Below the pieces are notes generated by a model. It searched no databases. It was not told where the DNA came from and worked only from the letters and a program-made list of their open reading frames with translations. From NCBI RefSeq assembly GCF_001544615.1, contig NZ_FCNV02000021.1, positions 1-45,826 of the forward strand: a DNA stretch of 45,826 bases. Direction: 5' to 3'. Each line of letters starts with the position of its first letter. The stretch's first letter is position 1. The translations under genes were made by a program, and so were the position numbers. Below are positions 13,612 to 35,628 of the stretch, in pieces. This DNA comes from Caballeronia concitans. GTDB taxonomy: Bacteria; Pseudomonadota; Gammaproteobacteria; Burkholderiales; Burkholderiaceae.

Positions 13612-14176
13612 TTACCCTTCGTTATTTCGAACATCGATCCAGGCATCTTTAATGTAGTCCCTGTTCTTTAAGAATTGCTTGCTTTGCCACAACATTACAA
13701 AAAATACCGGCACTATCACCAATGCATGAGGGCTAACTTCTTTTGTCCAGATGAAGATTGAGATAACGAAAAGAATGGAGTTAAAACTGAACAGCGTCCA
13801 TGCGACGTACACAGCCGGATCTTGTGATTCTCCCATATACCGCAAATGAGCCAAGCGAATATGCCATGCAGGGCCGCTGAACCGTTCCTCGAAGAATACG
13901 TTAATGTAATAGCCAATTTTAAAGATATCGTCGCGATGAGCCGTCAGCATTTTCATTCCAAACATAATAAATGGAACCGGAACAAGGAGCAGGTAACAGT
14001 GCCACCATGTGATTCTCTCCGGTGACGATGAAATGATTTGGAAGACGTACGCCGCAATTGCACCGGTTGCTGTCGTTACGCCCGTTGTCATCAAAGTAAG
14101 CAATTGCGTCATCGCTACTTCCCGCTGACGAAGGTGCTCATGCATTTGCTTGAATTCTTCTGCCAATAGCTTTTCT
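13612..14176 (-). pseudogene. 3' part of a membrane-protein gene split by the cointegrate
   Basis: The reading frame from the IS boundary to the stop at 13612 encodes EKLLAEEFKQMHEHLRQREVAMTQLL and about four hydrophobic segments (ATGAIAAYVF; CYLLLVPVPFIMFGM; YVAWTLFSFNSILFVISIFIW; ALVIVPVFFVMLW), ending KDAWIDVRNNEG. The 5' part is at 35621-35666 beyond the second IS. Joining 35666-35621 to 14168-13612, with one 8-bp target copy removed, gives an uninterrupted 200-residue protein that starts at a GTG with a perfect AAGGAGG site. The open frame that extends into the IS to 14421 is an artefact. Family unknown; a four-helix inner-membrane protein. Confidence 0.85.
14169..14176. repeat. 8-bp target repeat GCTTTTCT, outer left
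   Basis: GCTTTTCT directly left of IS66 copy 1. The same 8 bp lies directly right of copy 2 at 35621-35628. IS66 elements make 8-bp target duplications, so these two mark the original host target site. Confidence 0.9.
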
Positions 14177-14244
14177 GTAAGCGCGTCTTCATTACCGTGT
14201 AGATTTCGTCGTTGAGTTTGGCTACTTTGGTGCCCACCAAATGA

Positions 14245-14646
14245 ATGGTGGACGCAACAGTGGACAGCTCTCCTCAATCCAAACGGCCGAAGCGGCCCAA
14301 TTTTTCTGTCGAGTTCAAGCGGCAGATCGTCGAGGCGACGCTCAAGCCGGGTGCGTCGGCCGCGCTCATCGCTCGCGAGCACGACATCAACGCCAATCTG
14401 CTGTTCAAATGGCGTCGTCATTATCTTGCCGGCGATTTCGGCATGCCCGACGTCACGCTGCCAGAGGCGCCTGTGCTCAACTGGCTACCAGTGGCAGTGG
14501 CTGAGTCTTCACCGGAAGTACCGGCGTGCCCAGCGTCGGACAGCGCGAGCATGTACGAGGTCGAATGTGGCGACGTCCGTCTACGCCTGAGCGCGGATAC
14601 GCCCATCGCAACCCTGATCAAGATCATGCGGGGCCTTGCCCGATGA
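14245..14646 (+). CDS. tnpA: IS66 accessory protein TnpA
   Basis: 133 residues. The N-terminal helix-turn-helix ([20 protein letters not shown] followed by [21 protein letters not shown]) is the IS3/IS66 OrfA type DNA-binding domain. It ends in ATGA overlap with tnpB, so the two are translationally coupled. Required with TnpB and TnpC for transposition in the IS66 family. Confidence 0.9.
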
Positions 14647-15014
14647 GCCTGCTGATGCTGCCGTCCGCCGTTGGCCTGCCGTCCGGGTCCCGCGTTTGGC
14701 TGGCCGCGGGAGTCACCGACATGCGGGCCGGGTTCAACAGTCTCGCCGCCAAGGTGCAGACCGTGCTCGAACGGGATCCGTTCTGCGGGCACATCTTCGT
14801 GTTTCGCGGCAAACGCGGCGACCTGCTCAAAGTGCTGTGGTGGAGCGGCGATGGCATGTGCCTGCTGATGAAGCGACTCGAGAAGGGGCGCTTCGTATGG
14901 CCGCAGGCCGACGGTGGCGTTATTTGCCTGAGCCCGGCGCAACTGTCGATGCTGCTGGAAGGCATCGACTGGCGGCAACCGACGAGAACGGCACGACCGA
15001 CCTCGGCGTTGTAA
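14643..15014 (+). CDS. tnpB: IS66 TnpB (Orf2-type)
   Basis: 123 residues from ATG 14643, which overlaps the tnpA stop by 4 nt. It shows the Orf2 signature [33 protein letters not shown] and [17 protein letters not shown]. Its biochemical role in IS66 transposition is not settled. This is unrelated to the RNA-guided nuclease TnpB at 27951. Confidence 0.92.
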
Positions 15015-15043
15015 ACGTCGTTGCGGGCGCGTAAACTGCCTGC

Positions 15044-16636
15044 ATGACGCGCGCGAGCCCACTTCCCGACGATGTCGAAACGCTGAAGGCCATGCTGCTC
15101 AGCCAGGAAGCGACGCTGCGCGAGCGCGACGCACAAGTGCTCAAACTGCAGGAAACTGTCGACTCGCAACAAGCTGCGTTGGCTTCACGCATCGCCGAAG
15201 TCGAACACCTCAAGCTGCTCATTGCCAAGCTGCGCCGCATGCAGTTCGGCCGCAAGTCGGAGAAACTGGACCATCAGATCGAGCAACTCGAACTGCGCCT
15301 CGAAGAACTTGAGGCCGACGAAGGCGCGACGCCGGTCGAAATCCCTAGGACGCCGCGCGCGGCCGTGGAACAAGCGCCGCGCAAGCCACTGCCTGAACAT
15401 CTGCCGCGCGAGCTCCGGACGCACTTGCCCGAATCTGCCGGGAAGTGCTCCGATTGCGGTGGCGAGATGAAGCTGCTGGGCGAAGATGTTGCCGAACAAC
15501 TCGAGTACGTACCGGCAAGCTTCCGGGTTATCCGTCATGTGCGCCCGAAGTTTGCGTGCGTGTGTTGCGACAACATCTCACAGGCCCCCGCACCCAGTCG
15601 TCCTATCGAACGCGGTCTCGCCGGCCCAGGGCTGCTGGCACACGTGCTGGTCTCGAAGTTCGCAGACCATGTGCCGCTTTACCGGCAGTCGGTGATGTAC
15701 GCGCGAGAAGGCGTCGAGCTTGATCGCTCGCTGCTTGCGAAGTGGGTCGGTCACGCTTCGACGCTGCTGCAGCCGCTCGTTGAAACGCTGCGTCGACACG
15801 TGATGTCGGCGACGAAACTCCACGCCGACGACACGCCGGTTCCAGTGCTGGCACCGGGTAACGGCAAGACGAAGACCGGTCGCTTGTGGGTGTACGTGCG
15901 CGATGATCGTACATCGGCCGATATGACGCCGCCCGCGGTGTGGTTCGCCTATACGCCAGATCGCAAGGGTATCCATCCGCGACAGCATCTCAAGTCATTC
16001 GACGGCACGCTGCAAGCCGATGCATACGGCGGCTACCAGGCCATCTACGAAACCGGGCGCGTCACAGAGGCGGCCTGTTGGGCGCACGCTCGACGTCAGT
16101 TCTATGAACTGCACGCAGCGCGCCCGAATGCGTTGAACACCGAGGCGCTTGCGCGTATCGGCGCACTATACAGGATTGAGGAAACGATCAGGGGCAAGCC
16201 GCCCGACCAGCGCCGTGCGCATCGCCAGGAGCATGCGCGACCGCTACTCGATCAATTCCACGCGTGGCTCACAACGACGCTGGAGACGCTCTCGCGCAAA
16301 TCGGATACGAGCCGGGCGATCCTCTATGCGCTGAACCGGTGGGAAGCGCTCACACGCTATTGCGATGACGGCCAGCTCGAAATCGATAACCTGCCAGTCG
16401 AGCGCGCGCTACGCGGGGTGGCCATCGGTCGACGCAACTATCTGTTCGCTGGAGCAGACTCCGGCGGCGAACGTGCCGCCGCGATCTACAGCCTCATTGG
16501 CACCGCAAAACTCAACGGCATCGATCCAGAGGCGTATCTGCGCTTCGTGCTCGCGCGCATCGCGGGGCATGCGATCAACCGCATCGATGAACTCACACCG
16601 TGGGTCGTCGCCGATCAGATCCGCACCGCGCTCTAA
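15044..16636 (+). CDS. tnpC: IS66 DDE transposase TnpC
   Basis: 530 residues. N-terminal coiled coil ([19 protein letters not shown], residues about 14-95 with leucine heptads), a zinc-binding motif (CSDCGG...CVCC), then the IS66 DDE core: the first Asp region [10 protein letters not shown] (Asp262/263), the second region LQADAYGGY, and the Glu region in [17 protein letters not shown]. The C-terminal [20 protein letters not shown] is the conserved IS66 C-terminal domain. Length is normal and the frame intact. Confidence 0.93.
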
Positions 16637-16679
16637 AGATCTCAGTCTCCAGTCAAGACGTCGCTGGAGCCACGCTTAC

Positions 16680-16687
16680 CCGCAGGG
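16680..16687. repeat. 8-bp repeat CCGCAGGG, inner left
   Basis: Directly right of IS66 copy 1; identical to 33110-33117, directly left of copy 2. Confidence 0.88.
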
Positions 16688-16796
16688 GCCGGTGCAGGGC
16701 GAAATAATTTACAGCGTGCCGACAGCTGGCATCGCACCGTGCGACCCTCTATACAAACCGGAAGTCGGCCCTAAAAGCGGACCCTCTCTCATATAA
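16680..16796 (+). pseudogene. 3' fragment of the plasmid gene split by IS66
   Basis: Starting in frame with CCG-CAG-GGG, this stretch encodes PQGPVQGEIIYSVPTAGIAP and further to a TAA at 16794-16796. The 5' part is at 32528-33117. After removing one 8-bp copy the two join in frame to give a 232-residue protein. The stretch also extends the antisense-to-tnpC frame from 16365, but that link is an artefact of the junction. Confidence 0.8.
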
Positions 16797-16815
16797 ATAA
16801 CTGCCTGCCCGGATT

Positions 16816-16863
16816 GGCCCGTTTTTGCCCGCTACCTATAGGTGGAGCGGGCAAAAACGGACC
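16816..16863. repeat. long hairpin with palindromic loop
   Basis: Left arm 16816-16833 (GGCCCGTTTTTGCCCGCT) and right arm 16846-16863 are inverted with one mismatch. The loop contains the palindrome ACCTATAGGT (16834-16843). Further CGGGCAAA copies and a CGGACC follow to 16918. It could be a bidirectional terminator behind the split gene or a replication/partition site. Confidence 0.6.
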
Positions 16864-17297
16864 GGATGCCAATTGGCCAGAAGGACCGAAAACGGGCAAA
16901 CCGGGCAAATCCGGACCAAGCCAGCCTGTCGTCGGGGTGATACACGCCTACATTGCCCCGTCGCGCAGAGCTCTTGTTTCCAGCTGCGGACAAAAAATTC
17001 CCCGCTGGCATTGATTTTTCTGCCCCCGGCATACCAGCTTGAACACCGAAACGGGTCCCATCGCGTCGCGTGGTAGCGGACAGGGCCCCGAAAAATTTTA
17101 AAAATTTCTAGCTGTGATGCTCTGTTAAGGGCGGCTCTCTCATAGAGATTGGCAAAGTTCGCCGGCAGCATCAGCGAGGAGCGTGCCATCGATTCCGCAT
17201 ACAGGTATCGCGCGCCCGCGCGTAGCTATTCAGGCGCTCCAGCCCACTACTGCACTTTCTGGCAGTTGCCTAGACGCAACGAGCGCTAGCGTCATCG
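16864..17297. other. noncoding stretch before the par operon
   Basis: No supported gene. It contains CGGGCAAA-type repeats (16892-16918) and an AT-rich block at about 17090-17110 (poly-A/T, GAAAAATTTTAAAAATTT). Open frames here on both strands lack ribosome sites. Confidence 0.45.
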
Positions 17298-17327
17298 TTG
17301 ACTCCTTTCGCACTCAACTCAGATAAT
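17298..17327 (+). promoter_or_regulatory. parA promoter
   Basis: TTGACT (17298-17303), an 18-bp spacer, then GATAAT (17322-17327), 30 bp before the parA start. The CAACTCA repeats overlap the -10 end, so binding of the small partition protein would repress transcription. Confidence 0.65.
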
Positions 17328-17347
17328 CAACTCATTTACTCAACTCA
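17315..17347. repeat. par operator/centromere repeats
   Basis: CAACTCA occurs at 17315, 17328 and 17341, spaced exactly 13 bp. Inverted TGAGTTG copies and variants lie between parA and the next gene (18002-18034: TGAGTTG, TTAACTCA, GAGTTGAG). This fits the binding-site arrays of ribbon-helix-helix partition proteins. Confidence 0.6.
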
Positions 17348-17356
17348 GAGGCTGCC

Positions 17357-18004
17357 ATGATTGTTCTAGTCGGTGCAGAAAAAGGGGGCGTGGGGAAATC
17401 CACCATCGCCAGCAATCTAGCCGTTCATTTAGCGCATAACGGCGTAGACGTGGTGCTGCTGGATACGGACGGGCAAGCGACGTGCGCCCGTTTCATCGAG
17501 CGCCGCGACGAAGCCGGCATAACTCCCCCCGTTCCGTGCGTCCAGCGCACGGGCGACGTGGCCGCCACGCTACGAGACTTGGCGCGCCGCTATCAAGTCA
17601 TCGTGGTGGATGCAGGGGGCCGGGATTCGCGCGAAATGCGTTCGGCGATGGCGGTTGCCAATCTGCTGTTAGTGCCGACGCGTGCCAGTCAAGCCGACCT
17701 GGAAACGCTGCCTAAGGTTAATGAGTTGATCGCCCTCGCACGCGGGCTGAACCCTGAATTGAAGGCGTCGGCGGTGTTGTCGATGGCTCCATCGAACCCG
17801 GTGATTCGTGAAGTGGAAGACGCCCGCGAACTGATGGCACAGTTCGACCAACTGGAGCTGGCCGATACCATCATTCGCGACCGCAAGGCTTATCGGGATG
17901 CACTGCTTAGTGGGCAAGGAGTGGTGGAACGGGACAACTCCCAGGCGCGCGCCGAAATCCAATTGCTGGCTCAGGAATTCTTCGAGCTAGAGCCATCAAT
18001 CTGA
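17357..18004 (+). CDS. parA: ParA-family partition ATPase (ParF-type)
   Basis: 215 residues. Deviant Walker A motif at residues 9-16 (KGGVGKST), Walker A' near VVLLDTDGQATC, and IVVDAGG...S (Walker B-like). The short length without an N-terminal helix-turn-helix is characteristic of the type Ib ParF/Soj-like plasmid group, which moves plasmids on the nucleoid or by polymerisation. The partner is the small gene at 18035, 30 bp downstream. The operon is flanked by CAACTCA/TGAGTTG repeats, supporting autoregulation. The start ATG 17357 begins the first strand directly, as usual. Confidence 0.92.
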   Translation: MIVLVGAEKGGVGKSTIASNLAVHLAHNGVDVVLLDTDGQATCARFIERRDEAGITPPVPCVQRTGDVAATLRDLARRYQVIVVDAGGRDSREMRSAMAVANLLLVPTRASQADLETLPKVNELIALARGLNPELKASAVLSMAPSNPVIREVEDARELMAQFDQLELADTIIRDRKAYRDALLSGQGVVERDNSQARAEIQLLAQEFFELEPSI

Positions 18005-18034
18005 GTTGATGATTAACTCATTGGAGTTGAGTGA

Positions 18035-18274
18035 ATGAGTAAATTTAAGATTTCCAGCAACACAACCCGCACGGAAAAGCCAGCCACGCGCGAAGAATTC
18101 GTTTCCGGTGCCGCCCTCGTTCAATCGCAGGCCGGCACGCGACCGCCTAAGCCGGTTCGCCTCAATCTTGACCTAGACCCTGAATTGCATCGGCAGCTTA
18201 AATTGCGTGCCGTCGAAAACGGAATGACCATCGCGCAGCTGGTGCGCGGGCTGATCGCGCAGGAGATCGGCTAG
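18035..18274 (+). CDS. ribbon-helix-helix partition protein (ParG-like)
   Basis: 79 residues. The C-terminal KPVRLNLDLDPELHRQLKLR then AVENGMTIAQLVRGLI is a ribbon-helix-helix: a beta strand (VRLNLDL) and two helices. The basic, flexible N-terminal half fits ParG, whose tail stimulates the ParF ATPase. It follows parA, and the intergenic gap contains the same heptamer repeats as the promoter, the likely DNA target. Confidence 0.8.
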   Translation: MSKFKISSNTTRTEKPATREEFVSGAALVQSQAGTRPPKPVRLNLDLDPELHRQLKLRAVENGMTIAQLVRGLIAQEIG

Positions 18275-18340
18275 ACCGTGGCCCACCAAAAGTCGTGACG
18301 CCAAGCTGAAGCCTTCTTTCTAACCCGAAGGGGGGCTTTG

Positions 18341-18445
18341 ATGTACCAGTGCACAACAGCAGGACGGTGGGTAAAGTTAGTGCAGCTTTTTGCCGATGTA
18401 TCCGGCATTGGCGACGACGCCCAGGCATGGGCGCAATGTGACTAG
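18341..18445 (+). CDS. possible 34-residue ORF
   Basis: MYQCTTAGRWVKLVQLFADV and 14 further residues, from ATG 18341 preceded by GGGGGG (18330-18335) at 5 nt spacing. No homologue recognised. It may be chance or part of a structured leader, since the preceding sequence can fold into an imperfect hairpin (AAGCCTTC...GAAGGGGGGCTT). Confidence 0.3.
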   Translation: MYQCTTAGRWVKLVQLFADVSGIGDDAQAWAQCD

Positions 18446-18527
18446 AAGTGCAGCGAAGCGCGGCGCTGTGAATGGATCGCTGCGTGTCCGCTCGATGATT
18501 TGAACGACAACGAAGAAGAGAGCAACA

Positions 18528-18929
18528 ATGAAAAAAACACTACGGGGAATGGTGGTGCTGGTGGGGTTGACCGTGTTCGGGGTGGCGCAAGGGGCAAACT
18601 GGGTGATGTTGTCAGCGCAAAGCAATGTGAGCACATACCTGATTGATACGGACTCAATCGTTAAGGGGCAAAACGACACAGTACGCGCCTGGATTCAGGA
18701 GCGCCCGAAAGTCATCCCAATGAAGCTCTCAAATGGGGTGGCCTATGACGATCATAAGTATCTCACCCTGGTCTACTGCAAGACCCGCATGAATTCCGTT
18801 GGGCCGTCCTATTGGTACTTAGTTGGAAACCCCGTTTTCACAATGGGCGGTTATTCAGAACCATCCGAGGTTATCCCTGATTCAATGGGTGAAGCCATTT
18901 GGACGACGCTGTGCCGCCCGGGAACGTAA
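18528..18929 (+). CDS. secreted surface-adhesin-E-like protein
   Basis: 133 residues. Signal peptide MKKTLRGMVVLVGLTVFGVAQG, then WVMLSAQSNVSTYLIDTDSI and a C-terminal region with two cysteines (YCKTR, TLCRPG). The pattern W-x-x-x...YIDxxSI matches the surface-adhesin E family, a small periplasmic or surface protein common in Burkholderiales. It stands alone on the plasmid between par and rep, with a terminator downstream. Role in adhesion is a family label only. Confidence 0.75.
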   Translation: MKKTLRGMVVLVGLTVFGVAQGANWVMLSAQSNVSTYLIDTDSIVKGQNDTVRAWIQERPKVIPMKLSNGVAYDDHKYLTLVYCKTRMNSVGPSYWYLVGNPVFTMGGYSEPSEVIPDSMGEAIWTTLCRPGT

Positions 18930-19003
18930 GCGCCCAATCTTGCGTTGCAGCATGCCCGCCAGCGGCAGGCGCCATAGGTGAAACGCTAACACGCCCCTTT
19001 CAT

Positions 19004-19026
19004 CCGCCCTGGGTGGCGGGGTTTTT
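19004..19026 (+). terminator. Rho-independent terminator
   Basis: CCGCC (19004-19008) and GGCGG (19015-19019) form a stem followed by GGTTTTT. It terminates the adhesin-like gene. Confidence 0.65.
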
Positions 19027-19055
19027 GTGCGGGCGGCGCACGCAATGTAGGTAGG

Positions 19056-19361
19056 ATGATCGCGTTTTCCTCTCAACCAGAACGAGAAGCCATGGACTAT
19101 TTAGAGCGCGCATATCACGAGCCTTGGGACTTCAATCCGGCCGTTCATAGCGAGCCACCATCCTCGTTCGACAGCACCCCGACTCACGACACCAGCACGC
19201 CAGCAGCAACCCACTCTTCAACAGGTGCCGCTGGCGGTTTCATCAACAACAATCCGGAACTCGTTGCTGTCGTGATCGCGGCAGCGGTGCCGCTCGTTGT
19301 CCAAGCAAGCATATGGGGCTTTCGGCGCGCCAGTGAATGGTTGCGTCAAAGTGACGCCTGA
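19056..19361 (+). CDS. small membrane-anchored hypothetical protein
   Basis: 101 residues from ATG 19056, or 89 from ATG 19092. An N-terminal Pro/Ser/Thr-rich soluble part (PPSSFDSTPTHDTSTPAATH) precedes a single C-terminal hydrophobic helix (LVAVVIAAAVPLVVQASIW) and a short basic tail. This is a tail-anchored topology. Unknown function. Confidence 0.5.
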   Translation: MIAFSSQPEREAMDYLERAYHEPWDFNPAVHSEPPSSFDSTPTHDTSTPAATHSSTGAAGGFINNNPELVAVVIAAAVPLVVQASIWGFRRASEWLRQSDA

Positions 19362-19598: not shown

Positions 19599-20375
19599 TC
19601 ATAGCAACCGGCCCTGCGGATCGCGTTCGAACGTGAAACGGACAGCCTTCACCTTGCGACCCGCCTTGATCGGCTCCCATTCGATGATCCAGCCGTCTTT
19701 CGCGTTGAGTTCCGCAACGGCCGGCTCGATGATGCGTCGCTTGATATTGTTGAAGTTCTCGCGCTGCTTCTCAGTGGCATCCATCGCGGTAGCAAAGTCG
19801 TCGATGTCGTACTCGGCCCATCCGGTCGACTTGAAACGCGTCAGCAGCTCGAGCAGCCGCCAGGAATAGATCGATCGCAGCGCAGACGCCTGCTGAAGCT
19901 GATAGGTCGTGAACTGTCCCTTCAACGCAGTTAAATGGGGCAGCAAGTCAGGCCACCAATGAAGTTCCACCCATCCTTCACCGACTTGGTATTTCACGAT
20001 CCCCACCCAACGCATTTGAACCTTCGTCGGTGGAAGTGGGGCGCCGTTGCGACGATGCGCGGCCTCATAAAAAGTGATCGATCTACTGTAGAGCGTCTTG
20101 GCCGCAGCCTGAAGCTGCTCGTATGCGGTATTGGGGTCGACGTGGAACGTCTCCGCGTACTCGGTAGCCGTGATCCGGGTAATGGGCGTCTCACCGCCTT
20201 GTGGAGCTCGACGGCTATCCAGTTTGCTGACCGCCGCGGCAACGATGCGCTTTTCGGCCAAAGTCAGTCCCTGTCCCGCTCGCGTAAGGGCGTTGCTCAT
20301 AGAGATCCATCGATCGCCGGCCGGTCGGTTAAGGCCAAGCAAGTAATTCGCTGTCTTCGCTACATTGCTGCTCAC
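19599..20375 (-). CDS. rep: Rep_3-family plasmid replication initiator
   Basis: 258 residues with the RepB/Rep_3 double winged-helix pattern: LIMSNALTRA-like opening (here ISMSNALTRAGQGLTLAEKR), FHVDPNTAYEQLQAAAKTLY, QLQQASALRSIYSWRLLELL and a C-terminal winged helix (NIKRRIIEPAVAELN). Rep binds iterons and opens the origin. Start is GTG 20375 with GGAGG 5 nt upstream. The DNA just upstream carries TGACGCAAT sites (autorepression) and, 300 bp further, the iterons. The gene is complete, so the plasmid could in principle still fire from its own origin. Confidence 0.9.
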   Translation of the reverse strand: MSSNVAKTANYLLGLNRPAGDRWISMSNALTRAGQGLTLAEKRIVAAAVSKLDSRRAPQGGETPITRITATEYAETFHVDPNTAYEQLQAAAKTLYSRSITFYEAAHRRNGAPLPPTKVQMRWVGIVKYQVGEGWVELHWWPDLLPHLTALKGQFTTYQLQQASALRSIYSWRLLELLTRFKSTGWAEYDIDDFATAMDATEKQRENFNNIKRRIIEPAVAELNAKDGWIIEWEPIKAGRKVKAVRFTFERDPQGRLL

Positions 20376-20402
20376 ATCTTCCTCCGCGTCGTGCGGAGAC
20401 TC

Positions 20403-20466: not shown

Positions 20467-20558
20467 ACAGAGATCAGTACAGTTACTTTCCTGCCCGCCT
20501 GCCTGTGTCCGGCGTTTGGGCATACATATGGCCATCCATACCTCATGCGATGCCTTAA

Positions 20559-20594
20559 TTCCTTGGTTCCTTGGTTCCTTGATTCCTTGATTCC
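20559..20594. repeat. 8-bp tandem repeats in the origin region
   Basis: TTCCTTGG, TTCCTTGG, TTCCTTGA, TTCCTTGA and a final TTCC run without gaps. The perfect palindrome TTGCTTGCAAGCAA follows at 20611-20624. Confidence 0.7.
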
Positions 20595-20659
20595 AAGCTT
20601 GCTTGGAAGGTTGCTTGCAAGCAAGAAACCAAGTTCCCAAGAAGAGGGCCGCGGTTGCT

Positions 20660-20668: not shown

Positions 20669-20670
20669 CG

Positions 20671-20828
20671 CCCGGAAAAAGACGCACAGACCCGGAAAAA
20701 GACGTAGTTGACCCGGAAAAAGACGCAATAGCATCCTTCAAAGCCTTGCGGGGTAAGGCTCACAGCCTCTTATAAACAAGAAAAAACTATCTAAAAACCT
20801 TCACGCCAAGGCAACCCGGAAAAAGACG
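20671..20828. repeat. plasmid origin iterons and AT-rich zone
   Basis: CCCGGAAAAAGACG occurs at 20671, 20691, 20712 and 20815. The first three are spaced 20-21 bp, about two helical turns, as expected for Rep-bound iterons. Between the third and fourth lies an AT-rich stretch (20768-20802), a likely strand-opening site. With the DnaA-like box and rep this forms a complete theta-type origin. Confidence 0.8.
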
Positions 20829-20901
20829 CAGTTCATGGCTCCCCTAGGTACATGTGAGCTTGTGCCCTGCCGTGCATAGGCGCGGGAATTAAATGATATC
20901 T

Positions 20902-22893: not shown

Positions 22894-23163
22894 CGGCCCC
22901 GCCAGTACTGCAAACCTAGGCGGGCTTGCGGATCGTCCAGCACATTCCGACGATCACCGTTCATCGGTGAGTATAGAAGAGGAACGGCCCCCGGCCGGAC
23001 TTCGGACGTAGCCGGGATTGCTGGCGGTCGCAGTGATATTCCCGACCTCCGCCGTTCGAATGTCAGTATACAGCGGCCCCGCCAGTACCACGAGCTTAGG
23101 CGAGGTGAAGGAACTACGCCGTTCACTCCCGAGTTCCGCCGCACAAAGCATTATGATGGGAGC
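22894..23163. repeat. three degenerate ~90-bp GC-rich repeats
   Basis: Units begin CGGCCCC at 22894, 22985 and 23074 (spacing 91 and 89). They share a start (CGGCCCCGCCAGTAC in units 1 and 3), a middle TAGGCGGG/TAGCCGGG block and an end like GTTC...TGAGTAT. A fourth, inverted copy of unit 1 lies at 27803-27873. No gene is supported here. Confidence 0.6.
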
Positions 23164-23555: not shown

Positions 23556-25646
23556 TCAGACGCGCCACAGCCAGTCGCCCTTCGCGCCCAAGATGCCTCT
23601 TGCCACTAGGCCCTTCACGGCGTCTTTGGCTCGCTCCTTCTTCTTCCTTGGCTGATCGCACAGCATCCGTTCGGCCACGAGCGCAATGGCCTCATCGAGG
23701 CGGATGCAAGGTCGATCTTCCGGCGCGCCATCCTTCCCGGTCTCGAAAGAATTGCGCAGCGGCTCGGCCAAGGTGTCGAGCGCGATCTTTTGATTACCAC
23801 CAGAAGGCAGCTTCGTCCGTTTCACCGCCTGCACCGATTCATCCGGCACAATCACGCAGCTCGTGATGGAATCGCCACAGTCATCGTCGCCGAGCTCCAC
23901 GATGAGCAGCTTGAATGGGTGAGCAGCGCCGGTCTCATCGTCCTTCGACTTGGCCACGATCCACTCGCGACGGCTGTCGGTCGCGTTCACTTCGATGGCA
24001 CCATCGAGCGCTGCATGCAGGCTCGAATGCCCGCGCAGGCCCTTCGTGGCGTCCTTGCCCGTGTGATGGACGAGCAGGACCAAGCCGCCGAGCAGGCTCT
24101 GCAGGCGCTTGGCAGCGGCAATGATGTTGCCCATATCCACGGACGAGTTTTCGTCCGCGCCGGGCGCAGCGCGGTTCAGCGTGTCCAGCACAACCATGCC
24201 GCCAGCACCTCCAGCGCTTTCGATCAAGTGAGCAAGCTCGGCCACGCCTGCGTCGTCGAGCAAGTCGAAAGGCGCGGTCATGAAGCGCAGATCGTCAGGC
24301 AACGGCTTTTCATGGTGGGTGGCCCACGCTTTGACGCGCTTGCCCATGCCAGCGTCGCCTTCCAAGGCGCAGTAAGTTACCGGGCATTGCGTGACGCGAC
24401 GTCCGAACCATTCGGCATCGCCACCCGACACGGCGGCAGCAACGTCGAGCATCAGAAACGATTTTCCGCTTCCGCTCGGACCAAACAGCGCGGCCAGACC
24501 TTCGAGCGGCAACATCCCGCGCACCAGCCACTTCATCGGCGGCGCATTCGCCAAGTCGGCAGCAGAGCGCAGAGGAAAGCGCACAGTCGCAGGACTCTGC
24601 GCAGCTCCAGACGGCGGGTCGATGGTCTGACGGTCTTTCCTTGCCTTGCGCGCTTCCCGTGCCCACTGAATCAGGGTTCCGATCGTTGCGACGTTCCTCG
24701 CACGGCCGAAGCTTTCCCATTCCTTTTCGCATAGGCCAGGCTGATACATCAGCTCGCCGTCATCTTTCACGCGCTCGTCGTTTGCTGACCAGGAATCCCA
24801 CAATTCGAGCCATTCGTCGTTGCCGCAGCCTTGGTGATGCAGGATCATGCCGAGCTTCAGCCAACGATTGCGATCCCATTCCGCCGCGTTTGGATCGAGG
24901 TGAGACAGCAGCTCGTGCTGGACGCGCTTCAGGGACCAACGCAGATCGGGCTGCTTCATCTCCAACATGCTGAAATTGTCATCGTTGCACGCTTCAGCTT
25001 CAGTCGGCGTCACCACTTCGGAGCTGGGACTCACCAAGTAATAGTCGGGGTTGAAGTAGCCGCCCCCGCGATGCGCCCAAGACTTGTATTCAGCTCCCTG
25101 GTTTTGTACGGGCACATACATGGCGCGTTCGGCTTGCGCCGAACCAGGATCGAGCTTCGCTCCAAAAAACGAAGCGATGTCGGGCGTCACCGCGAGGCGT
25201 TCTTCACGGGCCATATCGCGTCCGCTGGGAACGATAATCCGCAGGCGCGGCGCGTCCGGCGTATGGGATCGCGTGGTATGTGCTACGTAATCGAAGGGCG
25301 CGAGCACAGCGCCCCGCTCGAGAGCGGCATACAGCTCGACCGTATCATCGTCAAAATCGAGAACCACTGCCGAGCTGTACTTGAGAGCATCACGGGTGCG
25401 CTTGTCCCCGTCGAAAGCACCCCATGCGATGAACGGATCGCGCTGCTTTGCTTCGTTGCGCTCCGCTTTGCCCAGCGCCATGAAGTCGCTGTGCGGAACC
25501 GGGTTTTGCATCGGCTTCGAGACAAACGCTTCGAGCGTGGCGAAGCTGATCGGCTTCGTAGGGCGGACAATGCCGAGGTTTCCTTTACCGGTAGACGCCG
25601 ACAAGAGGCGCTCTTCAAGGACTTGGGGAGTTTGGCTTGCTACCAT
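23556..25646 (-). CDS. plasmid primase-helicase fusion
   Basis: 696 residues. N-terminal primase-like part with VVLDFDDD (about 94-100) and HTTRSHTPDAPRLRIIVP. A PriCT-2-like helical linker follows at about 240-295 (HELLSHLDPN...WLKLGMILHHQG...LWDSWS). The C-terminal RepA-type hexameric helicase has Walker A GPSGSGKS (about 388), Walker B MVVLDTLNRA and LVLLVHHTGKD (about 525), then RGHSSLHAALD. A combined archaeo-eukaryotic-type primase and RSF1010-RepA-like ATPase would supply priming and unwinding for the plasmid. Catalytic residues of the primase half were not fully checked. Confidence 0.85.
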   Translation of the reverse strand: MVASQTPQVLEERLLSASTGKGNLGIVRPTKPISFATLEAFVSKPMQNPVPHSDFMALGKAERNEAKQRDPFIAWGAFDGDKRTRDALKYSSAVVLDFDDDTVELYAALERGAVLAPFDYVAHTTRSHTPDAPRLRIIVPSGRDMAREERLAVTPDIASFFGAKLDPGSAQAERAMYVPVQNQGAEYKSWAHRGGGYFNPDYYLVSPSSEVVTPTEAEACNDDNFSMLEMKQPDLRWSLKRVQHELLSHLDPNAAEWDRNRWLKLGMILHHQGCGNDEWLELWDSWSANDERVKDDGELMYQPGLCEKEWESFGRARNVATIGTLIQWAREARKARKDRQTIDPPSGAAQSPATVRFPLRSAADLANAPPMKWLVRGMLPLEGLAALFGPSGSGKSFLMLDVAAAVSGGDAEWFGRRVTQCPVTYCALEGDAGMGKRVKAWATHHEKPLPDDLRFMTAPFDLLDDAGVAELAHLIESAGGAGGMVVLDTLNRAAPGADENSSVDMGNIIAAAKRLQSLLGGLVLLVHHTGKDATKGLRGHSSLHAALDGAIEVNATDSRREWIVAKSKDDETGAAHPFKLLIVELGDDDCGDSITSCVIVPDESVQAVKRTKLPSGGNQKIALDTLAEPLRNSFETGKDGAPEDRPCIRLDEAIALVAERMLCDQPRKKKERAKDAVKGLVARGILGAKGDWLWRV

Positions 25647-27802: not shown

Positions 27803-27873
27803 GCTGAGCGGTGGTCGTCGGACCGCGCTGGACGATCCGCAAGCCCGTCTAGGCGTGCAGTAGTGATGGGGCC
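27803..27873 (-). repeat. inverted copy of the 22894 repeat
   Basis: The reverse complement, starting at 27873, matches 22894-22965 over about 70 bp, including a shared run GGGCTTGCGGATCGTCCAGC. A perfect hairpin GTATCGA-CGA-TCGATAC sits just left (27781-27797). Confidence 0.7.
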
Positions 27874-27950
27874 GCACATACTTCCTACGGTAATGCCATC
27901 GCGCAACTCACCGTTGCGGCCAGATATGGACCTGGGCTACGCTTTCGTCC

Positions 27951-29216
27951 ATGAAACGACACCAAGCCTTCAAGTTCGAGCTTCGCCCGAATGGCGCACA
28001 AGTCCGCTTGCTGCGGCAGTTCGCCGGCACTTGTCGTTTCGTCTATAACAAGGCGCTTGCGTTGCAGAATGAGCGGTTCGAGCGCGGCGAGAAGCGGCTG
28101 ACTTTTGGTCAAATGGGGTTGATGCTGACTCAGTGGCGGGCCGACAAAACGATCCCGTGGCTTAAGGCGGGCGGCACTGCGCAAACGCAACAGCAGGCGC
28201 TCAAGAATTTGGAAGCCGCCTTTGTGAACTTCTTCTTGAAGCGCGCTGATTGCCCGCGCTTCAAGAAGAAGGGCGACGGCGATAGCGTCCGGTTCCCCCA
28301 GCACTTCAAGATCGACCACCAAAATGGGCGTGTGTGGCTGGTCAAGCTCGGCTGGATGCGCTATCGAAACAGTCAATCAATCGTCGGGACCGTCAAGAGC
28401 GTCACGGTATCGTTGCGAGCCGGGAAATGGTTTGCGTCCATCCTAGCCGAGCGTGAGGTGGAGATTCCGCTGCCGGAATCGCGAAGCGCTGTCGGTATCG
28501 ACCTCGGTGTCACCACCTTCGCGGCGCTGAGCACGGGCCAGACAATCGCGCCGCTCAATAGTTACAAGAAACATCAAGATGCGCTTGCGAAGGCTCAGCG
28601 TCGCATGGATCGCAAAGTGTTAAACAGCCGCAACTGGAGAAAGGAAAAGGCGCGTGTATCGAAGCTGAACGCTCGGATCGCGAACGTTCGTCGTGACTTT
28701 CTCAACAAGGCGTCGACTGCCATCAGCAAAAAACACGCAATGGTGTGCGTCGAAGACCTGAAGGTGAAAAACATGACCAGGTCGGCTTCCGGTACGGTTG
28801 ACGCGCCGGGGAAAAGCATTCGCCAGAAGTCGAGTTTGAATCGCGTAATTCTGGACCAGGGCTGGTGCACGTTCCGACGCATGCTTGAGTACAAGGTGTT
28901 TTGGAATGGCGGAATCTTCATTGCCGTACCACCGAAGTACACGAGCCAGACCTGTCCCGCGTGTGGACATGTCGCTGCGATCAACCGAAGCAAACAGCAG
29001 TTCGCATGTGTGGAATGTAGCTATCACAATCACGCCGATGTTGTTGGCGCGATGAACGTTTTAAGGGCGGGGCACGCCCAGTTAGCCTGCCGAGTGAACG
29101 GTGCAGCAATTCCGTCAGCAACAGGAACCCATCGAAGCGACCTTGCCATTTCATGGCCGGGCGCAGTAGAAGTCGCCGAAAGCCGATGGATGTCACGAGG
29201 ACGATATTCCTCCTAG
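27951..29216 (+). CDS. tnpB: TnpB RNA-guided nuclease (IS200/IS605-type)
   Basis: 421 residues. N-terminal wedge/REC region (QAFKFELRPNGAQ, FAGTCRFVYNKAL), then a split RuvC nuclease: Asp184 in GIDLGVTT, Glu268 in CVEDLKV and Asp363 in NHADVVGAMN. The zinc ribbon CPACGH...CVEC lies between the last two. All catalytic residues are present, so it is probably active. No TnpA transposase is adjacent. A small left hairpin (CGCAAC-TCACC-GTTGCG, 27902-27918) may be the element's left end. The guide RNA would be expected at the 3' end, about 29150-29300. Confidence 0.92.
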   Translation: MKRHQAFKFELRPNGAQVRLLRQFAGTCRFVYNKALALQNERFERGEKRLTFGQMGLMLTQWRADKTIPWLKAGGTAQTQQQALKNLEAAFVNFFLKRADCPRFKKKGDGDSVRFPQHFKIDHQNGRVWLVKLGWMRYRNSQSIVGTVKSVTVSLRAGKWFASILAEREVEIPLPESRSAVGIDLGVTTFAALSTGQTIAPLNSYKKHQDALAKAQRRMDRKVLNSRNWRKEKARVSKLNARIANVRRDFLNKASTAISKKHAMVCVEDLKVKNMTRSASGTVDAPGKSIRQKSSLNRVILDQGWCTFRRMLEYKVFWNGGIFIAVPPKYTSQTCPACGHVAAINRSKQQFACVECSYHNHADVVGAMNVLRAGHAQLACRVNGAAIPSATGTHRSDLAISWPGAVEVAESRWMSRGRYSS

Positions 29217-29888: not shown

Positions 29889-30527
29889 TCAAGCAGCCCT
29901 CAGTTCCGCCGATACGCTTGCGACGGTCGCGCGGCTAGTGTCGAGATGCGAGACGATCCACGACCAGCTAAGGCCCTTTTGCAGAGCGTCAGCAATCGCA
30001 CGACGCTTCTCAATGTCAACCGGACGACCCCTGAACTTGCCTTCGTCTTTCGCTTTAGCGATGCCTTCGGCCTGACGGCGGCGGCGGTCTTCGTAGTCTT
30101 TGCGTGCAACTGCCGCGAGCATGTCGAGCAGCATCGAGTTGATGGCGGCAAGCATGCGGCCTGTGAATGCGTCAGTCGCCCCCGAAGCGAGTGCCGCATG
30201 TGACGTAGGCAGATCGAGCGCCACAATCACGATGCCCTTCTCGTCGATCTTGCGGCGAAGGGTTTTCCAATCGTCTTCATTCAGTCGTGCAAGCCGGTCA
30301 ACCTGTTCGAGCAAAAGCACGTCCCCAGCCTTCGCGCGTTCGATCAGCTTGAACAGTTCCGGGCGTTTCAGAGTGGCACCGCTTTCGTTTTCGACAAACT
30401 CCGCGGCGACGCGCTCCCCATGCTCTTCCGCGAACTTTTCGAGGGCTGCGCGTGCGCGCGCGGCGTCTTGCTCTTTCGTCGATGCACGCAGGTAGGTGAA
30501 CACATGGCGCTTAGTGCTTTTCGGCAT
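29889..30527 (-). CDS. serine recombinase (resolvase/invertase)
   Basis: 212 residues from ATG 30527 (AGGTTAGAG upstream). Catalytic region HVFTYLRASTKEQD with Ser as in RAST, DVLLLEQVDRLAR and the helix KDYEDRRRRQAEGIAKAKDE. A C-terminal helix-turn-helix follows (SWSWIVSHLDTSRATVAS). Likely DNA resolvase or invertase on the plasmid. It is divergent from the resolvase at 30721, and the gap between them may hold their recombination site. Confidence 0.85.
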   Translation of the reverse strand: MPKSTKRHVFTYLRASTKEQDAARARAALEKFAEEHGERVAAEFVENESGATLKRPELFKLIERAKAGDVLLLEQVDRLARLNEDDWKTLRRKIDEKGIVIVALDLPTSHAALASGATDAFTGRMLAAINSMLLDMLAAVARKDYEDRRRRQAEGIAKAKDEGKFRGRPVDIEKRRAIADALQKGLSWSWIVSHLDTSRATVASVSAELRAA

Positions 30528-30720
30528 CTCTAACCTGTCGGTCTGGTTTAACTGGTTTTGATTATGCGGTCTGATATAAGTACAGTAAAGGGGTTTTATG
30601 TACCGATATGAGAGGTGCCGCACCGGTCTGCTTGAGGCATAGCCTAATTTGACTGTCAGGCGGCCCCGGTGACAGTGTCAGAATAAAGACCAAGCGGGCA
30701 AAGGCAAACGGGTCGGATAC
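30528..30720. promoter_or_regulatory. divergent intergenic region, candidate res site
   Basis: Imperfect inverted repeat ATATAAGTACA (30574-30584) against TGTACCGATAT (30599-30609), and a TGTCA/TGACA pair (30654-30658, 30670-30674). Dyads beside resolvase genes are typical of res subsites. Confidence 0.4.
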
Positions 30721-31257
30721 GTGCGCGTCAGCTCAGCGGATCAGAACACCGAACGGCAGCTTGATGGCGTTGAGATCGACAACGAATTTACGGACAAGGC
30801 GAGCGGCAAAGACACGAACCGCCCAAAGCTGAAAGAAGCCCTCGAATTTCTGCGCGATGGCGATACCCTCGTCGTCCATTCGATGGACCGTATCGCCCGC
30901 AATACGGAGGACTTGTTGCGCCTGGTGCGCGAGCTGAACGCGAAGCACATCAAAGTTGAGTTCGTGAAAGAGCGGCTTGAGTTCACCGGGCAAAACGATG
31001 ATCCAATGGAGCAACTCATGATGACGATGCTGGGTGCGTTCGCTCAGTTCGAGCGGGCGCTAATCCGAGAGCGCCAGCGCGAAGGGATCGAGTTGGCGAA
31101 AGCCAAGGGCGTCTACAAGGGCCGTAAGCCGGCATTGACCGCCGAACAGGTCGGGCGGTTGAAGGCGCGCGTCGAAGCCGGGGAAACCAAGTCCGCCGTC
31201 GCTAAGGCGTTTGGGATTAGCCGGGAAACGCTGCACCAATATATGCGGACCAACTAA
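30721..31257 (+). CDS. serine resolvase, possibly N-terminally frameshifted
   Basis: The conserved core starts VRVSSADQNTERQLDG with the catalytic Ser in VSS. It continues with VVHSMDRIARNTEDL, GQNDDPMEQLMM, RQREGIELAKAKG and a C-terminal helix-turn-helix (TKSAVAKAFGISRETLHQYM). The frame upstream reads KGKRVGY directly before it, but no start codon lies in this frame before a TGA at 30670. Dropping one T at 30684 would connect a GTG at 30675 (VSEKDQAGKGKRVGY). Either a 1-nt insertion inactivates it or a shorter GTG 30721 start is used. Confidence 0.8.
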   Translation: MRVSSADQNTERQLDGVEIDNEFTDKASGKDTNRPKLKEALEFLRDGDTLVVHSMDRIARNTEDLLRLVRELNAKHIKVEFVKERLEFTGQNDDPMEQLMMTMLGAFAQFERALIRERQREGIELAKAKGVYKGRKPALTAEQVGRLKARVEAGETKSAVAKAFGISRETLHQYMRTN

Positions 31258-31354
31258 ACACCTGCATAATAGGAAAACTGTTCGTCGCCACACACAGAGA
31301 ATTGGTCCGAAAGCACTAGCCTCTACGCACTGCGCTAAGACGGTGAGGATGCGG

Positions 31355-32281
31355 ATGCAAGCGAAACTGAAGAAAGGCGATCGAGTGAAGCACGCGACAA
31401 GACCCGAATGGGGAGTCGGAGAAGTTCTCGCCGATCAATCGGCCGATCGCGTTCGTATCATGTTCGAAGTCGAGGGGTTGAAAGAACTCGATCCAACAAG
31501 GGCGAGCTTCACGAACGTGACGGGCGATGAGGCGCAGTCGGTCCGTCTGACGGAACGTGTTGCTCACCAGTTGGCTCCAGTCAAAGGAACGGCATTGAAG
31601 GCAAGGAAGCCGCCCACGATCCTTTCCCTTGAGAAAGCCTCCGAAAACTTTCTCAAATATTTTCCGAAAGGATTCAACGATCCCGATTACCTTTCCGGGC
31701 GACGAAGCGAGCGGGATTACAAAGACTCGGCCGTTACCCTGCTGCACGAACGTCTTGAAAAGAAAGTGCTCACCGAATTGCTCGAAGCCCATGCATTCAA
31801 TGAAATATGCGACCGAGCGAAGGCGGTCATCAACAAGACCAATTTAATTCACCAGCAGGAAAAGATCGCGTTGGGGAATGGTTTGTCGCGCGATGGTGGA
31901 CAACAGGTGTTCGCTGAAGCGCTCAACGATCTCCTTAACGGCCTTGAATCCGAGCAACACCGGTTCGAGCGTTTTAGCAAAATGCTCGACAAGGTCGGCG
32001 CAGCGAAGTGGCCTATCGCAACATATTTCCTTTTCATCGGCTTTCCGAAGACACATGCCTTCCTTAAGCCCGAAGCCACCAAGTTTGCGGCCGATATGCT
32101 TCGGATCGATATCAACTATCGGCCCGAGCTGAACTGGCTTACCTATCGCTGCGTCCAGACGCTCTTCGAGACGCTGAAGGCCAGATTGATCAAGGATGGC
32201 CGCGCGGAACTCGTCCCGCGAGACATGATCGACGTGCAATCATTTATCTGGGTCACCGCCCCCACTTATGCGGAAAGCTAA
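31355..32281 (+). CDS. DUF3553-like N-terminal domain protein
   Basis: 308 residues from ATG 31355 (GAGG 6 nt upstream; the frame opens at 31211). LKKGDRVKHATRPEWGVGEV fits DUF3553/CarD-like small beta domains. The rest is unassigned and helical, with SLEKASENFLKYFPKGFNDP and FLFIGFPKTHAFLKPEATKF. Soluble. The 97-bp gap after the resolvase suggests a plasmid accessory gene. Confidence 0.6.
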   Translation: MQAKLKKGDRVKHATRPEWGVGEVLADQSADRVRIMFEVEGLKELDPTRASFTNVTGDEAQSVRLTERVAHQLAPVKGTALKARKPPTILSLEKASENFLKYFPKGFNDPDYLSGRRSERDYKDSAVTLLHERLEKKVLTELLEAHAFNEICDRAKAVINKTNLIHQQEKIALGNGLSRDGGQQVFAEALNDLLNGLESEQHRFERFSKMLDKVGAAKWPIATYFLFIGFPKTHAFLKPEATKFAADMLRIDINYRPELNWLTYRCVQTLFETLKARLIKDGRAELVPRDMIDVQSFIWVTAPTYAES

Positions 32282-32527
32282 GCAGCGCCGTTTTCCTTCC
32301 TTCGCTGTCTTCGTGGCCTCCGATGACCCGCACGGAAGCCGTCGTCCCGCACAGACCAAGGACCGCCGGCGGCACTCAGAACTGCATGTGCCGTGACGGT
32401 AGCCGAACCATCCGCTTCAACAGCCCAAAGTTCCGGGCACTGCCGTTCGACTTTGCAATAAAAACGCTCATCGCGACGAGCCTGGCTTTCAGACCGCTGG
32501 GCAAAAAACCTATAAAGGAACAAAGAC
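32282..32527. other. intergenic region
   Basis: No convincing gene. A strong-looking site before ATG 32528 is AAAGGAACAAAGAC (AAGGA, 32515-32519). Confidence 0.35.
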
Positions 32528-33117
32528 ATGGTCAATCCCTCGTTCCACTGGCGGCACTACGCCTCACCAAAGCAACGAAGTCAGGCGCTTTGGGTCCAAT
32601 TTCAGGCATGTTTTGTTGACGCACTCAAGGCGACTGACCCGTGCTCTTTTTCCTGGGCTTGGGAGTCGGCGGCAAACAGGACGAGTTTCTATCAAAACGG
32701 CATTCTCCCAAAGGTCGCGCAGTGCCTTGGTCTTATTGACGTGTACGAGTTGTTTCGCGTCGACTCAACGTTTTGCGTCGGGCAGAGCGCGGCGGAAAAG
32801 GCGACGCTCGTGCCCATCATTCATGTCGAGTCGGAGAACAACACACCAAGCGCAGGGCACGAAGTCAGGAAGCTCTGTGCGCTTACGTCACGCCTGAAGG
32901 TTCTGATTGTGTGCGACGAGTGGTCCTGCGCGTGGTCGCATGGTGGCCATGCATCACGTTATCTCGCCGAGTGGCGCGATCTTGTTCGCAACCACAATCT
33001 GTATCATCCGGACGATTGCGAGGTGGGCGTCATTGTCGCCGAGCGCCGTGACGATGGCACGTCCGCAGAGAAAATCTATTTCTATGCGACTGTTATCACC
33101 GACCCTGTACCGCAGGG
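32528..33117 (+). pseudogene. plasmid gene, 5' part, split by IS66
   Basis: MVNPSFHWRHYASPKQRSQA then a conserved-looking core with IIHVESENNTPSAGHEVRKL and VLIVCDEWSCAWSHGG. The frame runs to CCG-CAG-GG at the IS boundary; the G and TAA that follow come from the IS. The 3' end lies at 16680-16796. Removing one 8-bp copy joins them into a 232-residue protein. The VESENN and KLCALTS..VLIVCDEW pattern could be nuclease-like, but no catalytic motif is certain. Confidence 0.8.
33110..33117. repeat. 8-bp repeat CCGCAGGG, inner right
   Basis: Directly left of IS66 copy 2; the partner is at 16680-16687. Confidence 0.88.
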
Positions 33118-33185
33118 GTAAGCGCGTCTTCATTACCGTGTAGATTTCGTCGTTGAGTTTGGCTACTTTGGTGCCCACCAAATGA

Positions 33186-33587
33186 ATGGTGGACGCAACA
33201 GTGGACAGCTCTCCTCAATCCAAACGGCCGAAGCGGCCCAATTTTTCTGTCGAGTTCAAGCGGCAGATCGTCGAGGCGACGCTCAAGCCGGGTGCGTCGG
33301 CCGCGCTCATCGCTCGCGAGCACGACATCAACGCCAATCTGCTGTTCAAATGGCGTCGTCATTATCTTGCCGGCGATTTCGGCATGCCCGACGTCACGCT
33401 GCCAGAGGCGCCTGTGCTCAACTGGCTACCAGTGGCAGTGGCTGAGTCTTCACCGGAAGTACCGGCGTGCCCAGCGTCGGACAGCGCGAGCATGTACGAG
33501 GTCGAATGTGGCGACGTCCGTCTACGCCTGAGCGCGGATACGCCCATCGCAACCCTGATCAAGATCATGCGGGGCCTTGCCCGATGA
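33186..33587 (+). CDS. tnpA: IS66 accessory protein TnpA
   Basis: 133 residues, the same sequence as the copy at 14245, with an OrfA-type helix-turn-helix. ATGA overlap with the next gene. Confidence 0.9.
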
Positions 33588-33955
33588 GCCTGCTGATGCT
33601 GCCGTCCGCCGTTGGCCTGCCGTCCGGGTCCCGCGTTTGGCTGGCCGCGGGAGTCACCGACATGCGGGCCGGGTTCAACAGTCTCGCCGCCAAGGTGCAG
33701 ACCGTGCTCGAACGGGATCCGTTCTGCGGGCACATCTTCGTGTTTCGCGGCAAACGCGGCGACCTGCTCAAAGTGCTGTGGTGGAGCGGCGATGGCATGT
33801 GCCTGCTGATGAAGCGACTCGAGAAGGGGCGCTTCGTATGGCCGCAGGCCGACGGTGGCGTTATTTGCCTGAGCCCGGCGCAACTGTCGATGCTGCTGGA
33901 AGGCATCGACTGGCGGCAACCGACGAGAACGGCACGACCGACCTCGGCGTTGTAA
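33584..33955 (+). CDS. tnpB: IS66 TnpB (Orf2-type)
   Basis: 123 residues, the same as the copy at 14643, with [17 protein letters not shown] and [16 protein letters not shown]. Confidence 0.92.
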
Positions 33956-33984
33956 ACGTCGTTGCGGGCGCGTAAACTGCCTGC

Positions 33985-35577
33985 ATGACGCGCGCGAGCC
34001 CACTTCCCGACGATGTCGAAACGCTGAAGGCCATGCTGCTCAGCCAGGAAGCGACGCTGCGCGAGCGCGACGCACAAGTGCTCAAACTGCAGGAAACTGT
34101 CGACTCGCAACAAGCTGCGTTGGCTTCACGCATCGCCGAAGTCGAACACCTCAAGCTGCTCATTGCCAAGCTGCGCCGCATGCAGTTCGGCCGCAAGTCG
34201 GAGAAACTGGACCATCAGATCGAGCAACTCGAACTGCGCCTCGAAGAACTTGAGGCCGACGAAGGCGCGACGCCGGTCGAAATCCCTAGGACGCCGCGCG
34301 CGGCCGTGGAACAAGCGCCGCGCAAGCCACTGCCTGAACATCTGCCGCGCGAGCTCCGGACGCACTTGCCCGAATCTGCCGGGAAGTGCTCCGATTGCGG
34401 TGGCGAGATGAAGCTGCTGGGCGAAGATGTTGCCGAACAACTCGAGTACGTACCGGCAAGCTTCCGGGTTATCCGTCATGTGCGCCCGAAGTTTGCGTGC
34501 GTGTGTTGCGACAACATCTCACAGGCCCCCGCACCCAGTCGTCCTATCGAACGCGGTCTCGCCGGCCCAGGGCTGCTGGCACACGTGCTGGTCTCGAAGT
34601 TCGCAGACCATGTGCCGCTTTACCGGCAGTCGGTGATGTACGCGCGAGAAGGCGTCGAGCTTGATCGCTCGCTGCTTGCGAAGTGGGTCGGTCACGCTTC
34701 GACGCTGCTGCAGCCGCTCGTTGAAACGCTGCGTCGACACGTGATGTCGGCGACGAAACTCCACGCCGACGACACGCCGGTTCCAGTGCTGGCACCGGGT
34801 AACGGCAAGACGAAGACCGGTCGCTTGTGGGTGTACGTGCGCGATGATCGTACATCGGCCGATATGACGCCGCCCGCGGTGTGGTTCGCCTATACGCCAG
34901 ATCGCAAGGGTATCCATCCGCGACAGCATCTCAAGTCATTCGACGGCACGCTGCAAGCCGATGCATACGGCGGCTACCAGGCCATCTACGAAACCGGGCG
35001 CGTCACAGAGGCGGCCTGTTGGGCGCACGCTCGACGTCAGTTCTATGAACTGCACGCAGCGCGCCCGAATGCGTTGAACACCGAGGCGCTTGCGCGTATC
35101 GGCGCACTATACAGGATTGAGGAAACGATCAGGGGCAAGCCGCCCGACCAGCGCCGTGCGCATCGCCAGGAGCATGCGCGACCGCTACTCGATCAATTCC
35201 ACGCGTGGCTCACAACGACGCTGGAGACGCTCTCGCGCAAATCGGATACGAGCCGGGCGATCCTCTATGCGCTGAACCGGTGGGAAGCGCTCACACGCTA
35301 TTGCGATGACGGCCAGCTCGAAATCGATAACCTGCCAGTCGAGCGCGCGCTACGCGGGGTGGCCATCGGTCGACGCAACTATCTGTTCGCTGGAGCAGAC
35401 TCCGGCGGCGAACGTGCCGCCGCGATCTACAGCCTCATTGGCACCGCAAAACTCAACGGCATCGATCCAGAGGCGTATCTGCGCTTCGTGCTCGCGCGCA
35501 TCGCGGGGCATGCGATCAACCGCATCGATGAACTCACACCGTGGGTCGTCGCCGATCAGATCCGCACCGCGCTCTAA
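33985..35577 (+). CDS. tnpC: IS66 DDE transposase TnpC
   Basis: 530 residues, the same as the copy at 15044, with intact coiled coil, zinc motif, DDE core and C-terminal domain. Both transposases are predicted functional, so further mobility is possible. Confidence 0.93.
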
Positions 35578-35620
35578 AGATCTCAGTCTCCAGTCAAGAC
35601 GTCGCTGGAGCCACGCTTAC

Positions 35621-35628
35621 GCTTTTCT
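35621..35628. repeat. 8-bp target repeat GCTTTTCT, outer right
   Basis: Directly right of IS66 copy 2; the partner is at 14169-14176. Confidence 0.9.

Follow-up and report, generated by a model that had tools for sequence, protein, structure and literature searches.

Two identical IS66-family copies with matched outer and inner 8-bp flanks around a small Rep_3 replicon in a draft contig of Caballeronia concitans

Plasmid fusion by recombination through an IS66-family insertion sequence (IS) is already known in Escherichia coli, and the kind of event considered here is an ordinary one. In strain T28R, two plasmids were fused by homologous recombination at the IS66-family element ISCro1 together with ISCR2; the fusion plasmid was found in 23 of 200 transconjugants, and the authors present pT28R-F3 as the first plasmid fusion through ISCro1 to be reported (PMC12115866). 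In Agrobacterium 15955, recombination between two IS66 copies in direct orientation on pAt15955 deletes 270 kb (PMC6778807), and in Salmonella PJM1 a plasmid-chromosome cointegrate formed by IS26 is described (PMC9019673). The accessible parts of two further papers, PMC8066831 and PMC12375680, do not tie IS66 to fusion. The stretch analysed here, 45,826 nucleotides of C. concitans DNA (contig NZ_FCNV02000021.1; hereafter the window), contains two direct copies of an IS66-family element that enclose a set of plasmid genes, and a first-pass annotation had read it as a small plasmid cointegrated between the two copies. The pattern almost certainly goes back to two IS66 insertions, of which one struck a plasmid and the other a host locus. 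That a whole replicon lies between the copies is borne out below, but fusion of plasmid and host into one molecule is not established.

As drawn in the contig, the locus resembles pT28R-F3 in that an IS66-family element joins two replicons. The E. coli fusion, however, involved two sites (ISCro1 and ISCR2), lost large segments and had its junctions confirmed by polymerase chain reaction (PMC12115866), whereas in Caballeronia one element stands at both sites, nothing is lost and the junctions are read from a draft contig alone. With pAt15955 it shares direct IS66 copies around a large segment, a substrate for homologous recombination; there, however, the duplications on either side of each IS match one another, and the exchanged pattern is not seen (PMC6778807). 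The PJM1 case is similar in that a plasmid lies in the chromosome between direct IS copies, with interchange of fused and free forms described, but it belongs to the IS6/IS26 family and was studied by matings, S1 pulsed-field gel electrophoresis and long reads (PMC9019673), as against a draft contig here. The element itself shows no difference of substance from the IS66 family: like IS66 of Agrobacterium (tnpABC, 8-bp duplications), it has three open reading frames (ORFs) with the family domains and makes 8-bp duplications, and its GTAAGCG ends are among the likenesses. Two Paracoccus IS66 elements are likewise tabulated with an 8, in a column of presumed duplications (PMC3281130).

The two copies are identical, with 0 mismatches over 2,503 bp in direct orientation, which extends to the DNA level and to the whole element the earlier observation that their translated frames do not differ; their termini are GTAAGCG and CGCTTAC. 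Each encodes an IS66-type DDE transposase (NF033517, 5.6e-146) alongside the TnpA and TnpB ORFs, and the window holds two pairs of 8-bp target duplications. Both outer 8-mers read GCTTTTCT and both inner ones CCGCAGGG, exactly as the first-pass annotation had them, so that direct IS copies are combined with a matching outer pair and a matching inner pair, the flanks expected of a cointegrate. From base composition, both matches would occur by chance with a probability of about 3e-10; the empirical collision rate of a single 8-mer in the window is 2.6e-5, and further occurrences of GCTTTTCT and of CCGCAGGG in the window are ascribed to chance. The exact outer and inner junction patterns are absent from the viral_contigs set. 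A duplication of 8 bp is what this IS normally leaves, because relatives in Caballeronia sp. M1242 (99%) and in another genome, G019 (91%), also sit within duplications of that length (ATTTCGGA and TTGCCGGC, respectively). In the M1242 copy, a 90-bp internal stretch (L143 8009-8098) is inverted and 49 bp are missing, the 8-bp duplication being kept. Searches of the own genome, in which ten contigs below 3 kb were masked, found only the two copies of the window at full length; the remaining two DNA matches to the IS cover 102 bp (80%) and 87 bp (74%), and contig C15 carries one further IS66-family transposase.

Removal of the IS and of one duplication restores a gene on either side. The outer join gives a host gene of 200 amino acids on the minus strand, with hydrophobic stretches as judged by eye and with its GTG start and Shine-Dalgarno site supplied by the right-hand flank, and the inner join a 232-amino-acid ORF running from 32528 through the joint to its stop. 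Taken alone, the frame that runs open through the inner join is weak evidence, because a second frame at this place is free of stops for about 30 codons as well. An IS-free relative does exist, however: in G019, a 118-bp DNA match crosses the inner joint without the IS. Its translation corresponds to residues 176-232 of the 232-amino-acid ORF (52.6% over 57 residues, E 2e-14 in that locus), with one stop inside these 57 residues (L185 1481-1651), and overlaps just the last residues of the 196-amino-acid plasmid piece. It is thus a decayed remnant of the same plasmid gene, by which both inner ends are confirmed to belong together. Since both joins rebuild genes and the G019 match spans the joint, the interior was a 16,430-bp circle until the IS inserted, and the outer DNA was likewise continuous until its own insertion. 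The plasmid join, searched as 600 bp, matched 7 of 398 genomes of the family, the own genome included, and the five matches besides this one and G019 are short and one-sided. For the host join (900 bp), no junction-spanning match was found outside the own genome among 58 genomes of the genus. The 185-amino-acid piece of the host gene gave no match in a Pfam scan; it was found in the own genome only among the 398 family genomes, as was the 196-amino-acid plasmid piece among the 58, and neither has a match in the plasmid collection. No genome was found with the inner DNA in the same linear context but without IS66, the situation that the first-pass annotation had named as contradicting it. About 20 bases beyond the stop codon of the interrupted plasmid ORF lies a palindrome-like stretch of 48 bp (16816-16863) that is terminator-like; 55 bp over it are 91% identical in contig C10 of genome G053.

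The DNA between the two copies is 16,438 bp long, so that interior plus one IS would make a circle of 18,941 bp. Domain and repeat searches agree with the earlier report of rep, iterons, parA and resolvases in it (Table 1). A Rep_3 initiator adjoins iterons of the ACCCGGAAAAAGACGCAGTT type, and related Rep genes occur on plasmid records; the stretch of the first three iterons is kept in related plasmids, with 80-89% identity over 140-158 bp in three relatives of the genus (L021, L022 and L025). With this gene content, the interior can be taken as a whole plasmid replicon. A partner for ParA had also been announced: a 79-amino-acid ORF is indeed present, but its ribbon-helix-helix match is weak and below the Pfam cut-off. 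On a B. glumae plasmid, a CopG gene adjoins the MipZ gene. The plasmid record with the nearest ParA (93.5% identical) is p2 of Caballeronia sp. SL2Y3 (NZ_CP084264.1), a circular molecule of 20,142 bp with a Rep 71.8% identical to that of the interior, the same convergent rep/parA arrangement and a conserved iteron stretch; it differs by its type I restriction cargo and has no IS66 in its annotation. The closest Rep overall, at 88%, comes from C. zhejiangensis OP-1, where it lies on a contig of 7.5 kb. The interior sequence is present once in the own genome and has no phage match, and a Pfam scan of 18 interior proteins found no relaxase domain. An Rfam search of the window returned nothing at gathering scores. 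Between rep and the iterons there are about six tandem 8-bp units (GATTCCTT, 20549-20594). A 70-bp inverted repeat (22894-22963 and 27805-27874, 84% complementary) has one arm just upstream of the TnpB-type gene and is possibly the end of a TnpB element plus a stray copy.

Table 1. Features of the window (positions in the 45,826-nucleotide stretch)
Feature	Position	Strand	Basis or remark
3' part of broken host gene	13612..14176	-	200 aa when whole
Outer left target duplication GCTTTTCT, 8 bp, host	14169..14176		= 35621-35628
IS66-family IS, left copy, 2503 bp	14177..16679	+	Pfam domains of three ORFs
tnpA of left IS66 copy	14245-14646	+	Pfam HTH_Tnp_1
tnpB of left IS66 copy	within 14526-15014	+	Pfam TnpB_IS66
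tnpC (DDE) of left IS66 copy	15044-16636	+	DDE_Tnp_IS66, zinc finger, C-terminal element
Inner left target duplication CCGCAGGG, 8 bp, plasmid	16680..16687		= 33110-33117
3' end of IS66-broken plasmid ORF, stop ends 16796	16688..16796	+	Inner join
ParA/MipZ-type partition ATPase	17357..18004	+	MipZ 1.9e-17
79-aa ORF, possible ParA partner	18035..18274	+	RHH_10 1.8e-5, 25.3 bits vs cut-off 27
Rep_3 replication initiator	19599..20375	-	Rep3_N 9.4e-37, Rep3_C 4.6e-18
Four ~20-bp iterons, ACCCGGAAAAAGACGCAGTT type, upstream of rep	20670..20833		Repeat search
Primase-C-terminal / AAA_25 protein	23556..25646	-	Domain scan
TnpB-type RNA-guided nuclease gene	27951..29216	+	NF040570 2.9e-95
Serine resolvase 1	29889..30623	-	PF00239
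Serine resolvase 2, divergent from resolvase 1	30721..31257	+	PF00239, HTH_7
5' part of IS66-broken plasmid ORF, 196 aa of 232	32528..33117	+	Inner join
Inner right target duplication CCGCAGGG, 8 bp, plasmid	33110..33117		= 16680-16687
IS66-family IS, right copy	33118..35620	+	Identical to left copy
Outer right target duplication GCTTTTCT, 8 bp, host	35621..35628		= 14169-14176
5' end of broken host gene	35629..35679	-	GTG start 35666-35664, AAGGAGG ribosome site 35679-35673
First 76 bp of different IS66-type element at contig stop	45751..45826		Shared terminal sequence

Whether the two replicons are physically linked depends on how the contig was assembled. The window is the complete contig C7 of a 47-contig draft. 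Among the contig ends (210 runs of N dropped, and one 17-bp overlap taken as chance) there are 15 overlaps of exactly 77 bases, two of them self-overlaps, and 53 of the 74 unmasked contig ends have their last 60 bases in common with another end. A single 16S gene was found, on a 5,364-bp contig; each of nine genomes of the genus in 3-9 contigs has 4-6 such genes, and the other four searched genomes, of at least 30 contigs, have 0 or 1. Contig C4, 3,448 bp long, is a two-copy repeat that was left collapsed and has two neighbours at either end. The draft thus has the look of a de Bruijn assembly whose short reads do not cross those repeats, and from k=77 our guess at the assembler is SPAdes, whose repeat resolution is named a common source of misassembly in the Unicycler paper. 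The k-mer multisets of the fused contig were compared with those of separate molecules, i.e. a host with one IS (26,885 bp) and a circle of 18,941 bp: none of the ten k tested up to 2,504 shows a difference, and each of the three tested from 2,505 does. The order host-IS-plasmid-IS-host does appear in the contig, but k-mers up to 2,504 bp are equal for separate molecules and the order across the IS is therefore not backed by the sequence. By our reasoning, the corresponding loop has one linear path that uses all the pieces, and an assembler that resolves it would draw a cointegrate in either case. A tuf pair on contig C44 was considered as a long-repeat control; its longest exact shared run is 518 bp, which is uninformative for 2.5 kb. 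Contigs C10 (103,628 bp) and C30 (11,036 bp) each overlap themselves by 77 bases and are probably complete circular plasmids. Contig C4 (L101) has three long consecutive ORFs, two of which were scanned and belong to the phage-integrase family; we presume that they resemble a recombinase-in-trio.

The reading we prefer, with a probability of about 0.5, is that the linear contig is a loop unrolled by the assembler. An 18.9-kb iteron plasmid with Rep_3 and ParA carries one IS66 and the host replicon an identical copy, each within its own 8-bp duplication; these two insertions are seen in the sequence itself. The IS most likely came with the plasmid and then moved to the host locus, a direction suggested by the lack of any further high-identity copy in the unmasked genome. 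The assembler would most likely then have laid out a simple loop as host flank, IS, circle, IS, host flank, and the plasmid would be free, or would interchange with a fused form via RecA recombination between the copies. Several points weigh against this reading. A single contig traverses both copies and takes in the circle exactly once, as it also would in a real 1:1 fusion, and a free plasmid present in many copies might have come out unrolled in another way. The circles C10 and C30 stayed separate contigs, so that free plasmids were not always merged. In principle, long-insert pairs could span 2.5 kb, and the unrolling of such a loop by an assembler is our own deduction. Finally, an IS-made plasmid fusion can be stable, about 95% being kept after 14 days (PMC12115866).

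A real cointegrate, whatever its mechanism, stands in our judgement a little short of even odds. Perfect direct repeats of 2.5 kb are a good RecA substrate for splitting a fusion again, which counts against it. The first-pass annotation had derived the flanks either from replicative transposition or from recombination; both fit, but a free plasmid and a host IS66 copy give the same pattern, and with either mechanism the order along the contig is without sequence backing. RecA recombination between an IS66 already present in the host gene and the IS66 of the plasmid, which we consider possible but on the unlikely side, predicts exactly the flanks seen, though it requires two earlier insertions and a crossover and is inseparable by this sequence from replicative transposition. 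Both published IS66-family rearrangements that we met, the pAt15955 deletion (PMC6778807) and pT28R-F3 (PMC12115866), are reported as homologous recombination. Replicative transposition with the plasmid as donor and the host gene as target, which would make the outer duplication new and the inner one the old plasmid duplication, would account for all the flanks by a single event after the plasmid insertion; the IS copies are identical and the unmasked genome offers no other high-identity copy for recombination, but replicative fusion by an IS66 element was not met in the part of the literature surveyed, and we regard this route as unlikely. That a stably inherited, true Caballeronia cointegrate was formed by IS66 acting replicatively and not by RecA is slightly more doubtful still; if true, it would be a case from nature in which IS66 itself fuses replicons. 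A composite transposon, in which two IS66 copies moved 16.4 kb as a unit, would explain direct identical copies and matching outer flanks. It does not, however, predict that the inner flanks match (composition gives about 1 in 55,000), that joining the inner ends rebuilds an ORF with an IS-free relative in G019, or that a complete replicon lies inside; unrelated inner flanks and a cargo with no circle junction, which would mark such a transposon, are not what is found. The poor fit noted by the first-pass annotation is thus upheld, and we hold this explanation to be scarcely credible.

The same annotation had inferred a recent event from the likeness of the copies. This is reasonable whether the plasmid is fused or free, but 100% identity is weak evidence of age, because an assembly gives identical copies of any repeat that its reads cannot tell apart. 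If the fusion is true, the locus offers a clear example from nature of a small plasmid joined to a larger replicon by an IS66-family element, in which both duplications can still be read. If it is not, it serves as a warning that a free plasmid and a host insertion leave exactly this trace, a short-read contig whose inner and outer IS flanks match; for this reason, such contigs should not be counted as integrated plasmids unless the junctions are checked.

Among the genes of the outer DNA are a member of the impB/mucB family and a polymerase gene of the dnaE type. Both are preceded, within 5473-10786, by a 255-amino-acid ORF with no Pfam match, and we take this region to be an imuA-imuB-dnaE2-like mutagenesis cassette. 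Among the plasmid records that match the outer side, 84 of 86 come from Burkholderiales genera; as the collection consists of plasmids only, these matches do not call the host DNA plasmid or chromosome. At its right end, the contig stops within a different IS66-type element, which begins GTAAGCGATCC. The same terminal sequence is found at ends of contigs C9, C34 and C45, and this second element is multi-copy and collapsed in the assembly.

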